32,217 nt of DNA, from contig JABSRH010000010.1 in assembly GCA_013215175.1 (NCBI GenBank), positions 1-32,217 of the forward strand. Direction: 5' to 3'. The notes under the pieces were generated by a model, which was not told the DNA's origin, ran no database searches, and saw only the letters and a list, made by a program, of their open reading frames with translations. Source of the DNA: Parvularculaceae bacterium (GTDB lineage: Bacteria > Pseudomonadota > Alphaproteobacteria > Caulobacterales > Parvularculaceae). The position numbers were made by a program, and so were the translations under genes. Positions within the stretch are counted from its first letter, which is position 1, and each line of letters begins with the position of its first letter. This document shows positions 4,139 through 25,930 of the stretch, piece by piece.

Positions 4139-4936
4139 TCATGGGCGGTCAACAGCCTGAACGAGACTCGCCAACTCAACGCCCGGATCGGCGGCTCTCA
4201 TGAGGTGCTCGCCAATGAGGAAACTGCGAATGCCAGCGCTGGTAAGCGTGCGCATCGCATCGGCGCCATCGACGCCGGACTCGCTCACGATGGGGATGCC
4301 TCCAGCCGCCTCTTTCAGCCGAACACTGGTCTGGATGTCGGTCTTGAACGTCTTCAAATCGCGATTGTTCACGCCCAGAAGGTCCGGCTCGAGCGGCAGC
4401 GCGCGCGCCAGCTCTTCTTCGTTGTGCACCTCAGCAAGCACGTCTAGCCCCCAGCGGCTCGCCTCCTCGCGCAGCGCCATGGCGAGATCATCGTCGAGGG
4501 CGGCGAGGATGAGCAAGATCGCATCGGCACCCCGCGCTCTCGCCTCGACGACTTGATACGTGTCCACCATGAAGTCTTTGCGCAGCAGCGGAATAGTCGT
4601 GGCCGCCCGCGCTTGCCCGAGGAAATCGATGTGTCCCTGAAAGCTTGGCTGATCCGTCAGCACCGAGAGACAGGCTGCGCCGCCGCGTTCCAGCGATGCG
4701 GCTAGCTCAGCAGGCTGAAAGTCCTCTCGGATGAGGCCCTTTGATGGGCTGGCGCGCTTGACCTCGGCAATGATGCCGAGACCGGCTTCGGCCTTGGCCG
4801 TGAGCGCAGAGGCAAAGCCGCGGGGCTCGACGGCTTCAGCTTCCTCCGCCAATTGCCCGACGGAGACCGAAGCTTTAGCCGCGGCAACTTCGTTTTTTTT
4901 GTAGGCGATGATCCGATCAAGGACGGTCACACTCAT
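4139..4936 (-). CDS. trpC: Indole-3-glycerol-phosphate synthase
   Basis: TrpC closes the indole ring, turning carboxyphenylamino-deoxyribulose phosphate into indole-3-glycerol phosphate, the fourth step of tryptophan synthesis from chorismate. The 265-residue TIM barrel shows the family motifs [13 protein letters not shown] (catalytic Lys), [23 protein letters not shown] and FLIGEHLMR. Its start overlaps the end of trpD by 4 bases (ATGA), so translation is coupled. It is a stand-alone enzyme, not fused to TrpF. Its stop codon abuts the SOS box of lexA. Confidence 0.97.
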
Positions 4937-22387: not shown

Positions 22388-22908
22388 TGTTCTCTCCCTC
22401 GATAAACCATACCTCGAAATAGCGTTCGTCAGCGCGGGAGCCATTCTTCTCTGCAGTTGCGGCGTCTGAACCGGGGCAGGCGAAAGCGGCGCCCCTGGTG
22501 CGTTTTGAGAGAGATGGGAACCTGGCGCGCGCGTCATCGCGGCGAGAGGTTGAATGTGACTGTACCGCGATGCGAGGGATCCTACCCCGCCGCGCACGCC
22601 AGTTCGCCTGAGGTCACAGCGCCCGTGCGGCCAATCCTTAGCTCACGCACGAAACGACACCGTCGAGGACCCGCCCCCTCACCGGCCTAAGCGGTGAGAG
22701 CACGGCGGCACGCCAGCAGCGCACCCGTCCAAGAGGACCCAAACGAAGCAACAGGCCGAAAGGCGACGGTACCAGCCAGTCCCAACCCTGCTGCGTGTGG
22801 GGGGTATTATGGGGTGGTTTTTGGGGAGGGGGACAAGGTGGTTCGAAAGCTCTAAAACCGCGACTTGCAAAAGAACAAAACAAGAACTATGGAAAACGAG
22901 TGGTGGCA
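22388..22908. other. Intergenic region before the restriction-modification genes
   Basis: About 520 bases with no convincing gene. It contains an inverted repeat CTCACCG/CGGTGAG at 22678-22698 and a G-rich tract at 22799-22832. The left part may hold the promoter of the minus-strand sorting-tail gene, and the right part that of the plus-strand R-M operon. Base composition becomes visibly more AT-rich from about 22850 on. Confidence 0.4.
22799..22832 (+). other. Putative G-quadruplex tract
   Basis: Four runs of at least four G are separated by loops of 6, 8 and 1 bases (TATTAT, TGGTTTTT, A). This fits a relaxed G-quadruplex pattern. It lies about 80-110 bases upstream of the endonuclease start, on the coding strand. 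Confidence 0.45.
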
Positions 22909-23526
22909 ATGCGGCACCGAATCGTTAGCAATCAGCAGATGTCCGTCGAAAGCCTCGTCCCCAGCGATATCAAAAGTCGGTATGACGTCTACGAATGGCG
23001 CAATGGTCTGGCTGTTCTTCATACGGCACACGCTGAGTGTTTTCGCGATATTCTAACCGTTTTACGTGAGTTCTCCTTTGCAAGAAGCGATGTGCTTACA
23101 CCGGGGGGAAGCAAATCTGGTATCGCAAGAAAGATTGATAGCCGATTTTATGAGCTGGGTTGGCAAGAGAAGACTTACCAAACAGCAGTAATCGTAGATG
23201 ACCAAAGGCTGGACTCCCCAACACACAGTGTTGATTGTGTAAAGGGGAAAGTTGCGCTCGAACTGGAATGGAATAACAAGGACCCATTTTTCGATCGTGA
23301 TTTGAATAACTTTCGACAGCTCTTTGATCTGCGTGCTATCGAAGTTGGGGTTATCGTCACACGAGCTACCGAGCTTCAAAAGATATTCGTCGAGCTGGGC
23401 CGGGGGTCCAGTTTCGGTAATTCTACAACACATGTCGCAAAGCTTTTGCCGCGCTTGGAAGGCGGCGCCGGCGGAGGCTGCCCAATAGTCGTGTTCGGGA
23501 TCACGGAGAATTGCTATGTCGGCTGA
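22909..23526 (+). CDS. Type II restriction endonuclease, BglII/BstYI-like
   Basis: A 205-residue protein that resembles the BglII/BstYI endonuclease family. The segment HSVDCVKGKVALELEWNNKD followed by DLNNFRQLFD fits the active site. Asp109, Glu118 and Glu120 keep the D-x8-E spacing known for BglII, with Glu in place of the Gln of BglII. Its recognition site, if BglII-like, would contain GATC, but this is inference. The start is uncertain: ATG at 22909 or 22939. The end overlaps the methylase start by 11 bases. The coding sequence looks more AT-rich than its neighbours, which suggests horizontal transfer. It is encoded upstream of its methylase. Confidence 0.82.
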   Translation: MRHRIVSNQQMSVESLVPSDIKSRYDVYEWRNGLAVLHTAHAECFRDILTVLREFSFARSDVLTPGGSKSGIARKIDSRFYELGWQEKTYQTAVIVDDQRLDSPTHSVDCVKGKVALELEWNNKDPFFDRDLNNFRQLFDLRAIEVGVIVTRATELQKIFVELGRGSSFGNSTTHVAKLLPRLEGGAGGGCPIVVFGITENCYVG

Positions 23527-24163
23527 TACAGTTGTACCCCTTTCTAACGCAAGCAGGTCACTCTTAGCTACGGCTAACGGTCAGAAATTTGGGACAATAT
23601 TAGCAGATCCGCCGTGGCAGTTTGCAAACAGAACAGGCAAGATGGCTCCCGAGCACAAACGCTTGAATCGTTATTCGACGATGACACTGGAAGACATATG
23701 CGAGTTACCAGTCGCGCAAGTCTGTCAGGAGCCATCTCATTTGTATCTTTGGGTACCAAATGCGCTTCTTCCAGACGGTTTACGCGTCATGCAGGCTTGG
23801 GGCTTTGAATACAAATCAAATATAGTCTGGCATAAAGTGAGAAAAGATGGCGGTTCGGACGGCCGGGGCGTGGGTTTTTACTTTCGCAACGTAACTGAGT
23901 TAATTTTGTTCGGGGTGCGTGGAAAGAATGCACGCACGTTGGACTTAGGGAGGCGGCAAGTTAATTTGCTCGCAACTCGAAAGCGCGAACATTCCCGGAA
24001 ACCAGATGAACAGTACGACTTAATTGAAGGGTGTTCCTGGGGACCTAGGCTGGAACTCTTCTCGCGCGGCGCCCGGCCAGGTTGGACTGTATGGGGAAAC
24101 CAAGCGGACGAGAGTTACGCGCCTGATTGGAAAACATACGGTTATAACTCCGCCACCGCTTGA
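23516..24163 (+). CDS. MT-A70 family adenine DNA methyltransferase
   Basis: A 215-residue adenine-N6 methyltransferase of the MT-A70 family, with the catalytic DPPW motif at residues 31-34 (ILADPPWQF) and blocks LYLWVPNALL, FEYKSNIVWHK and ELFSRGARPGWTVWGNQ. Next to a restriction enzyme gene it would protect host DNA by methylating the same site. The start codon lies inside the end of the endonuclease gene (11-base overlap), so the two are coupled. BglII's own partner is a cytosine methylase, so an adenine methylase with a BglII-like nuclease is a different pairing. Confidence 0.9.
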   Translation: MSADTVVPLSNASRSLLATANGQKFGTILADPPWQFANRTGKMAPEHKRLNRYSTMTLEDICELPVAQVCQEPSHLYLWVPNALLPDGLRVMQAWGFEYKSNIVWHKVRKDGGSDGRGVGFYFRNVTELILFGVRGKNARTLDLGRRQVNLLATRKREHSRKPDEQYDLIEGCSWGPRLELFSRGARPGWTVWGNQADESYAPDWKTYGYNSATA

Positions 24164-24268
24164 TGCCGTGGTATCACTTTGTTTAGCTACCCGGCGTACT
24201 GGAAATTTTCCCTGGACTAGGGCCCTGATTCATTTTGGACGCCTACGCAGTAAAATGCGACAAGGTGG

Positions 24269-24302
24269 ATCCCGGATAACCCTTTGGGTTTCCGGGATGA
24301 CG
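24269..24302. repeat. Palindromic repeat A (copy in intergenic space)
   Basis: A 34-base element: arms ATCCCGGA and TCCGGGAT enclose an inner AACCC-TTT-GGGTT stem, with GACG at the end. It matches repeat B in hflX at 30 of 34 positions. Confidence 0.85.
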
Positions 24303-24312
24303 TTTCTTCTGG

Positions 24313-24348
24313 GGGGCTGACCACGGCTTGGCCGTGGTGCCCCGCTTT
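24313..24348 (+). terminator. Probable terminator of the R-M operon
   Basis: GGGGC and ACCACGGC pair with GCCGTGGT and GCCCC in a 13-bp stem with a two-base bulge and a TTG loop, followed by GCTTTT. It lies 150 bases after the methylase stop. Confidence 0.6.
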
Positions 24349-24382
24349 TGGTTTCTCCGCCTTCTTGTGGGTTCGGTTATGG

Positions 24383-24420
24383 GCTCCACGGTCTTCGGCT
24401 TTGCCTTCGCCGTGGAGAGC
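24383..24420. repeat. Palindromic repeat C (copy just past the hflX stop)
   Basis: A 38-base element beginning GCTCCACGG and ending CCGTGGAGAGC, forming a hairpin. It is identical, base for base, to repeat D inside hflX. It begins 19 bases after the hflX stop codon on the minus strand. Confidence 0.9.
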
Positions 24421-24439
24421 CGTTGGGGGCGGTGTTTTG

Positions 24440-25918
24440 TTAGAGAGCTGTGCTGAACTCTTTTTCGAAGCGGCCCACGTCTCTGTTTTCTAGCCGTACA
24501 CTGAGCCTCCGTGCACCGTCTTCGGCAGTTTCGTCGGCTAGGACGTCGCCGTTGCGGTAGAGCCAGGCGGCGGCTTCTCCGTCCGAAGCTTTGAGGGTGT
24601 ACGTCACTTCGGTACGGAAGGCGGTGAGCTCGGCGTCGATGAGGTCGAGGAGATCCGTGACGCCCTCGCCTGAGATGGCGCTGAGAGCTACGGTTAGGGG
24701 GTCGTTGGGGGTGCCTTCTGCGGTGGCGGCTCGTTGTTTCGCTTGGTCGCGTAGGGATTGTTTTGTTGGGAGATGGGTCCCGGATAATCCTTCGGATTTC
24801 CGGGATGACGGGGGTTCCGAGCTTTGTTCTTGCTCGCCGGTTGGGAGATGAGCTCCACGGTCTTCGGCTTTGCCTTCGCCGTGGAGAGCGTTCTCCGAGG
24901 GTAGCGCGTCGACTTTGTTCCAGGCTTCGATGAAGACGGCGTCGCTTTCGTCGGTGAGGCCTAGCTCAGCCAAGACTTTGAGAACATCCGCTCGCTGAGC
25001 GTCGGATTCTTCGTGGCTGATGTCGCGCACGTGGACGACGATGTCCGCCTCCAGCACCTCTTCCAAGGTCGCGCGGAACGCGGCCACGAGGTGGGTGGGC
25101 AGGTCGGAGATGAAGCCCACCGTGTCGGACAGGATGGCATCGGCGCCGGAGGGTAGCTCCATCTGCCGCATCAGCGGGTCGAGGGTGGCGAAGAGGAGGT
25201 CCTTGGCGAAGGTCTCCTGCCCAGTGATCCGTTTAAAGAGCGTCGACTTGCCCGCGTTGGTGTAGCCGACGAGGGCGATGACGGGGCTGGGCGCCCTCTT
25301 CCGCTTGCGCCGCTGGAGGTCTCGGGTGCGGCGAACCTCGTCGAGTTCCTTCCGTAGGCGGTCGATCTTCTCTTGCAGGATCCGACGGTCGCTCTCGATC
25401 TGGCGCTCACCAGGACCGCCGAGGAAGCCCGCGCCGCCGCGCTGACGCTCCAAGTGGGTCCAGGACCGCACGAGGCGCGAGCGCTGGAACGTGAGGTGCG
25501 CGAGGGCGACTTGCAGCGTGCCCTCTTTCGTCTGCGCACGCTCGCCAAAGATTTCGAGGATGAGTGCGGTGCGGTCGAGGACCTTCACCTTCCACGCGCG
25601 CTCCAGGTTGCGGTGCTGGACCGGCGAGAGCTGGGCGTTGACGATGACCAGGCCGACGCCCTCGGAGGCGGGCTCTTTCAGCCAGCCTTCGATCTCGTCG
25701 ACCTTACCCTGGCCGAGGAAGGTGGCGGGCTTGGCCTCAGCCAAGTTGGCGATTTCCGCGCGCACGGTCTCGATGCCGATCGCCTGGGTCAGCGAAGCTG
25801 CTTCTTCGAGAGCGCCCTCAGCGGAGCGGAGAGAGCGGCCCGTGCCGGACAGCTCACAGTGAATGACAAAGGCTTTTTCAGCCGGGCGGGCCGTTTCAAA
25901 CGGTTCTTTGGTAGCCAG
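24440..25918 (-). CDS. hflX: GTPase HflX, with repeat-derived insert and apparent CTG start
   Basis: HflX is a ribosome-associated GTPase that splits stalled ribosomes. With the CTG start it has 492 residues: an N-terminal HflX domain (FVIHCELSG, ATFLGQGKVDEI), a coiled region after GGPGERQIESDRR, and the GTPase domain with G1 GYTNAGKST (218-226), G3 DTVGF and G4 NKVD (334-337). Between G4 and the G5 SA motif (413-414) lies a roughly 45-residue insert (about 342-386) encoded by repeats D and B. No ATG/GTG/TTG is in frame upstream of a GTG at 25763-25765, yet conserved coding sequence runs to the hfq stop. A CTG at 25916-25918 has AGAGG with 6-base spacing. The conservative annotation would start at 25765 (441 residues). 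Confidence 0.9.
   Translation of the reverse strand: MATKEPFETARPAEKAFVIHCELSGTGRSLRSAEGALEEAASLTQAIGIETVRAEIANLAEAKPATFLGQGKVDEIEGWLKEPASEGVGLVIVNAQLSPVQHRNLERAWKVKVLDRTALILEIFGERAQTKEGTLQVALAHLTFQRSRLVRSWTHLERQRGGAGFLGGPGERQIESDRRILQEKIDRLRKELDEVRRTRDLQRRKRKRAPSPVIALVGYTNAGKSTLFKRITGQETFAKDLLFATLDPLMRQMELPSGADAILSDTVGFISDLPTHLVAAFRATLEEVLEADIVVHVRDISHEESDAQRADVLKVLAELGLTDESDAVFIEAWNKVDALPSENALHGEGKAEDRGAHLPTGEQEQSSEPPSSRKSEGLSGTHLPTKQSLRDQAKQRAATAEGTPNDPLTVALSAISGEGVTDLLDLIDAELTAFRTEVTYTLKASDGEAAAWLYRNGDVLADETAEDGARRLSVRLENRDVGRFEKEFSTAL
24765..24775. repeat. Short direct repeat, copy 1 (in hflX)
   Basis: GTTGGGAGATG (plus strand) directly flanks repeat B. It encodes part of the HLPT peptide in the hflX frame. 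Confidence 0.75.
24777..24810. repeat. Palindromic repeat B (inside hflX)
   Basis: A 34-base palindromic element within the hflX coding sequence, matching repeat A at 30 of 34 bases. The differences include a C to T and G to A change at paired positions, so the stem is kept. In the hflX frame it encodes the stretch around SSRKSEGLSG. Confidence 0.88.
24840..24850. repeat. Short direct repeat, copy 2 (in hflX)
   Basis: A second GTTGGGAGATG, 75 bases (25 codons) from copy 1 and directly flanking repeat D. It encodes a second HLPT peptide. Confidence 0.75.
24852..24889. repeat. Palindromic repeat D (inside hflX)
   Basis: A 38-base hairpin-forming element identical to repeat C and lying in frame in hflX, where it encodes ALHGEGKAEDRGA. 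It begins about seven residues after the NKVD motif. Confidence 0.9.
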
Positions 25919-25930
25919 AGGAGGCCTCTT
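25916..25930 (-). promoter_or_regulatory. Ribosome binding site and CTG start of hflX
   Basis: On the minus strand, AGAGG (25925-25929) is followed by six bases (CCTCCT) and CTG (25916-25918), directly after the hfq stop codon. The spacing is ideal for a ribosome binding site. CTG as a start is rare; the case rests on the conserved N-terminal HflX sequence it opens. Confidence 0.55.

Follow-up and report, generated by a model that had tools for sequence, protein, structure and literature searches.

REPIN/RAYT systems are built on GTAG REPs, which occur as inverted hairpin pairs and reach high copy numbers in some species. Most REPs lie between genes, and those tagged with CGTC are found mainly in alphaproteobacteria, apparently without a dedicated transposase (Di Nocera, De Gregorio, Rocco 2013, PMC3733652). 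The same paper describes REPs placed in frame in various genes, where dimers or groups add 20–30 residues and clusters add 43–82. In that paper Rickettsia conorii has the highest number of intragenic CGTC repeats, and its RPE-4 and RPE-6 are assigned to this super-family (CGTC-4 / CGTC-1). In recB of Xanthomonas campestris and X. oryzae different REPs occupy about the same site. The loop of REPs differs in length in some species, and it is argued that many REPs are transcribed and are possible RNA elements (PMC3733652). Intragenic REPs, CGTC ones included, and different REPs at one site were thus already described in 2013 in the text of that paper.

We analysed a stretch of 32,217 nucleotides (hereafter, the window) from a Parvularcula MAG of 3.08 Mb (322 contigs, 89.65% complete). 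Its hflX gene carries an insert that very probably consists of extragenic palindromes, one CGTC-tagged REP and one palindrome of a CCACGG type, lying in frame in the loop that follows the G4 motif of HflX. What appears unusual here, judging from the sequences compared, is that different palindrome families sit at this one HflX loop in three species. The recB case already shows related species bearing different REPs at about the same position of a gene; it involves two species, whereas hflX involves three, more than one type of palindrome and mixed inserts. Neither HflX nor Parvularcula occurs in the main text of PMC3733652, whose supplementary list of intragenic REPs may hold HflX, and the parts consulted showed no case of a single loop with palindromes of different types in three species. 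A literature search for palindromes with HflX and for repeats with Parvularcula returned nothing relevant by title or opening of the abstract.

Palindromes inside and just past hflX

The hflX open frame spans positions 24440 to 25930 on the minus strand (496 aa from stop to stop). We identify its product as HflX because all four Pfam domains found in it (GTP-bdg_N, GTP-bdg_M, MMR_HSR1, HflX_C) exceed their cut-offs. The palindrome-derived insert is encoded at 24764–24889 (minus strand, ends set by eye) by 42 in-frame codons, residues 344–385 of the 492-aa translation. It sits between the G4 (NKVD) and G5 (SA) motifs, flanked by NKVDALPSEN and the helix before G5.

The insert contains two palindromes, both on the minus strand. 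Element A (24771–24810, core 24778–24805) is a CGTC-tagged REP whose loop is enlarged and pairs with itself; it encodes SSRKSEGLSGTHLP, its tail included. Element B (CTCCACGG..CCGTGGAG, 24853–24886) encodes LHGEGKAEDRG. Beyond the stop codon of hflX lies an intergenic array. It comprises a match to the in-gene A (24263–24302, core 24270–24297), the core of a third palindrome, C (CCACGGCTTGGCCGTGG, 24321–24337), a linker (24343–24383), and a B copy with the same sequence as the one in the gene (24384–24417). C is the first half of a C-linker-B dimer, and the linker contains GGTTTCTCCGC, which is also present in the in-gene dimer of the congener G004 (see below). The two A copies are 88% identical over 40 nt and the two B cores are identical at 34 of 34 positions; the B match extends to 51 nt at 92% identity (24370–24420 against 24839–24889). 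Allowing up to three mismatches, exactly two matches apiece were obtained in the window for the B core and for an A pattern with an unspecified inner stem, against none in 100 shuffles. At the same tolerance the B core has no further match in the window's genome, so that its only copies are those in hflX and just past it. Between the two A cores there is one paired change, C-G to T-A, in the inner stem and one different loop base.

The first-pass annotation had proposed that two palindromic elements past hflX recur in frame between G4 and G5, and this holds: both pairs were matched and the hflX frame is open through both elements. In the window neither A nor B has a stop codon in any of its three sense frames, so the open frame alone is little proof. 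The annotation also gave the order as the same in both places, which is right for A and B but overlooks C, the intergenic order being A-C-B and that in hflX A-B. It further regarded GTTGGGAGATG as a flank of each in-gene copy. The sequence is indeed present before A (24765–24775) and before B (24840–24850), both on the plus strand, but in the window's genome it is otherwise seen on B/C elements. It resembles the tail of a B/C-type element more than a flank of a target site, since it also precedes the B/C hairpins at two other loci of this genome (L008 and L013).

A MAG in 322 contigs with two identical B cores raises the question of whether intergenic repeats were mis-assembled into hflX. Such an assembly or binning artefact is very improbable, given that in-frame palindromes are found at the same place in P. 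mediterranea (3 contigs) and in a further congener, G004 (10 contigs), and that the window's frame is open with HflX domains on both sides of the insert.

Repeat families in the genus

We counted A elements in ten congener genomes with a strict pattern and a reversed-pattern control. P. maris BGMRC 0090 (G002) had 150 copies, P. mediterranea ZS-1/3 (G009) had 42, the window's genome (G000) 10, and G004 five, with no control match in any of them. The six other congeners had 0, 0, 0, 1, 2 and 4 copies; the control gave no match in nine of the ten genomes and one in G006. The marks of CGTC REPs are frequent in this family. The tag occurs in 122 of 151 copies, as GACG one base beyond the stem, and reads TGACGG at the in-gene copy of the window and AGACGG at both in-gene copies of P. 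mediterranea. In 129 of 151 copies, among them all three in-gene ones, ATGGG or ATGGA precedes TCCC, which on the tag strand is CCCAT or TCCAT after the stem. By these tag and tail sequences, element A would belong to the CGTC REP super-family. The stem of 8–9 bp beginning with AT and the loop of 4–5 bases of such REPs are matched by P. mediterranea copies such as TCCCGGATCAAGTCCGGGATGACG. The in-gene copies differ from the typical REP in that their first stem pair is changed and their loop is much longer and self-paired. Many P. maris copies form inverted pairs about 90 bases apart; their inner stems are diverse yet mostly self-complementary, and the outer stem is constant (both by eye).

The A family shares with CGTC-tagged REPs the tag, the CCA-type tail, the dispersal mostly between genes, the frequent inverted pairs, the lack of a known dedicated transposase and the presence of some in-frame copies; the enlarged self-paired loop and the altered first stem pair set the in-gene copies apart. 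With REPIN/RAYT it shares inverted hairpin pairs and many copies in some species, but A carries a terminal CGTC in place of GTAG. Of the ten genomes of the genus, one, that of P. maris, gave a match to the Y1 transposase family (PF01797; L075:1237-1923, MPDHLH motif, 27.9 bits for the open frame). The search, confined to this family, gave no match in the three carriers of the insert, G000 (89.65% complete), G004 and G009. A RAYT as the mobiliser of the carriers' elements was therefore rejected, the only Y1 transposase found in the genus being that of P. maris. P. maris is also the congener with the most A copies.

B and C are less easily followed. Counts of the CCACGG..CCGTGG pattern stood well above the control in P. 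maris (79 against 16) and in G007 (94 against 19), barely above it in G000 (29 against 22) and G004 (28 against 20), and below it in the other six congeners. As far as these counts tell, B/C is clearly a dispersed family in P. maris and G007 only. In the window's genome, where the counts hardly exceed the control, B/C elements were recognised by the heads and tails of a few copies. Neither a CGTC nor a GTAG tag was seen on B or C, whose borders are GCGCT-like heads and CCCATC-like tails (few copies, by eye).

We then asked how often the elements lie in genes, by comparing codon statistics on both sides of each A copy (strict pattern only). This was done for 152 distinct copies read with their flanks: 97 of the 150 P. 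maris copies, all 42 from P. mediterranea, 8 of the 10 in G000 and all five in G004. A coding signal was present on both sides of 135 copies (strong in 115); at least one flank lacked a clear signal in the other 17, for which the test says little. Three of the 152 copies were found in a gene, and in all three cases the gene was hflX. Element A is therefore dispersed and mostly intergenic. Some other candidates were dropped. At L163 and L064 of P. maris, stop codons part two tandem genes in the same frame. The translations of L054 of P. maris and of some weaker candidates resembled antisense shadows of their neighbours (by eye), and the best-frame test discarded them. Of the 23 B/C-pattern matches that were read, three lie in hflX and one more (L080) in a coding region; the latter has no B/C heads or tails and was set aside as a chance match.

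These results bear on the comparison with Rickettsia made in the first-pass annotation. The comparison is sound. The assertion that the element is different from those of Rickettsia claimed too much, since the CGTC tag and CCA tail of A are those of the super-family to which RPE-4 and RPE-6 are assigned in the text of PMC3733652; the traits in common are the palindrome, the CGTC tag and the in-frame position in genes. The genomes do differ in extent. R. conorii has the highest number of intragenic CGTC repeats in that paper, and in-frame insertion in many genes is a trait of Rickettsia palindromic elements; in Parvularcula the genome search proposed by the annotation yielded hflX as the sole gene among the 152 A copies matched by the strict pattern in four genomes.

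The loop in relatives and its history

All of the 61 genomes searched have an HflX match, although that of G017 (E 5.9e-5) is too weak for an orthologue. Among the 30 HflX proteins that were aligned, the insert is present in three (G000, G004 and G009) and absent from 27. Segment coordinates, judged by hand, indicate its absence in 29 of the remaining 31 genomes and allow no judgement in G017 and G059. Overall, 56 of the 61 genomes lack the insert, P. maris among them, three have it and two are not judgeable, in agreement with the earlier statement that HflX proteins normally have a short loop here. The distance from NKxD to SA is 22–24 residues in 19 of 26 open frames (32 named loci); the other seven values include errors in which an earlier SA was taken, as in P. 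maris and P. mediterranea. Counted by hand against P. maris HflX, the window's protein has 44 additional residues, close to the 45 first estimated, that of G004 has 48 and that of P. mediterranea 60.

The content of the insert is not the same in the three carriers. In protein order, the window has B followed by A, G004 has a B-type element, a linker and then C, i.e., a C-linker-B dimer, and P. mediterranea has A twice. The two copies of P. mediterranea have the same orientation and identical cores, which match none of the 40 other A copies listed in that genome. The annotation had held that relatives with the same insert in diverged DNA would speak against its reading. Two relatives do have an insert at the same place, but it is made of other palindromes or of other copies.

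Different content in all three carriers and the absence of any insert from P. maris are what one would expect if the loop were a preferred target in which each species acquired its own elements, with no ancestral insert. The hflX DNA trees also fail to unite the carriers, grouping G000 with P. maris (support 67 with codon positions 1+2, 38 with all positions). Several observations point the other way. In the protein tree the three carriers form a group, with support 80, that leaves P. maris outside. A has the same frame and orientation in the HflX of the window and of P. mediterranea, and its C-terminal end falls on the same codon, with 15 residues from the last T to EGTP in both (by hand), which favours one shared insertion. 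The window and G004 agree in the frame and orientation of B, although its residue position is not exactly equal, and the in-gene linkers of these two genomes are weakly similar (shuffle p 0.0135). We regard independent repeated insertion as possible but less likely than not. The one grouping that recurs across the hflX trees is that of G004 and P. mediterranea (80–84); protein and DNA trees disagree on the root of the four species. Hence, a single gain followed by a change of content, a single gain with loss in P. maris, and repeated gains are all candidate histories.

The linkers give a further hint. Of the window's two linkers, the intergenic one is closer to the in-gene linker of G004 (shuffle p 0.0015) than the in-gene one is, and the window's own in-gene and intergenic linkers do not match each other (shuffle p 0.30). 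Part of this likeness is a property of the family, because other dimers match as well: the linkers of L013, L068 and L090 match that of G004 in the same orientation, with scores of 24, 23 and 28 where the intergenic linker reaches 36 (each equalled by no more than one of 300 shuffles). In addition, the alignment of a P. maris dimer to the window's intergenic dimer runs through the linker at 71%. With this qualification, the match of the intergenic C-B linker to G004 hints that the copies at the hflX locus are related. Two sequence marks were also considered. GGTTTCTCCG after CCGTGG occurs once in G000 (here), twice in G004 (in hflX and at one other place) and once in G005, with two occurrences in the control. 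A GTTGG tail as a mark of common descent of the in-gene A copies proved weak, being shared by three other A copies of P. mediterranea.

The earlier suggestion that the repeats moved from the intergenic region into hflX went too far: two congeners also have palindromes in the gene, and nothing in these data tells which copy came first. Our own reading, which we put forward tentatively, is that the loop after G4 may be a standing site of palindrome turnover, where one ancestral REP was followed by hairpins that were swapped, duplicated or joined by other families, with paired stem changes passing into the protein and copying between the gene and its 3' side. Because the three sense frames of A and B are free of stops, any copy of suitable length would add a stretch of hydrophilic peptide of predicted disorder, and the GTPase should be able to accommodate it in a surface loop. 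The likeliest course would be the arrival of one element in the loop, after which copying among repeats would have brought in, duplicated or exchanged others. Such local copying is supported by the B core, present only in hflX and just past it, and by the in-gene A cores of P. mediterranea, identical only to each other among the copies listed in that genome. If this turnover is real, REPs from a changing pool add to the loop of a conserved GTPase. To the proteins already known to have grown through palindromic repeats, the Parvularcula example adds a ribosome-associated GTPase. Since one loop carries different palindromes in three related species and none in a close relative, the group offers a natural series in which to study how CGTC REPs spread when no transposase for them is known, and how the added peptides affect a protein.

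Predicted peptide, mRNA hairpins and flanking DNA

The AlphaFold model of the window's HflX (25-sequence alignment) has a mean pLDDT of 77.5 and a pTM of 0.71. The pLDDT is below 50 at residues 347–381, i.e., in most of the insert, and in two other stretches (1–8 and 238–244). The neighbours of the insert are modelled as folded, with a strand (328–334) and a helix (342–346) before it and a helix (386–399) after it. The insert is thus predicted to be a disordered loop in an otherwise mostly folded GTPase. Its peptide is hydrophilic (GRAVY -1.26). Low predicted order and hydrophilicity fit a tolerated loop and are no evidence for a function; that the insert is translated is itself inferred.

The hairpins might instead act in the hflX mRNA, through stability, pausing or attenuation, the peptide being a by-product. 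Read in the mRNA sense, each palindrome folds into a hairpin (no shuffle control), the inner stems of A vary among copies with complementarity kept (by eye), and the window's two A cores are separated by a paired change and a loop base. The main text of PMC3733652 argues that many REPs are transcribed and could work as RNA elements. Yet paired stem changes are equally expected from swaps of whole hairpins between copies, and the elements differ among species, so that no specific signal is conserved. We consider a role in the mRNA unlikely.

Some features around hflX deserve mention. The earliest ATG, GTG or TTG of the open frame is a GTG at 25765, at about residue 55. Upstream of it (25765–25930) the frame encodes conserved HflX N-terminal residues, although an in-frame ATG, GTG or TTG is absent. 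The start region of hflX in P. mediterranea reads alike (by eye). In the window, hfq directly precedes the putative hflX start region.

The DNA 3' of hflX has a lower GC content than hflX itself in the three insert carriers (0.514 vs 0.637, 0.476 vs 0.670 and 0.550 vs 0.657; window 22795–24163, L016 and L017), and the contrast is smaller in P. maris (0.641 vs 0.668). In the window this low-GC DNA encodes a BglII-family restriction endonuclease and an MT-A70 methyltransferase. In P. mediterranea, a second copy of the final ~197 bases of the hflX end region (4381–4575) lies about 880 bases downstream (L123:5259-5455, 84% identity) and also gives a partial HflX match, as though DNA added on its 3' side had supplied hflX with a new terminus.
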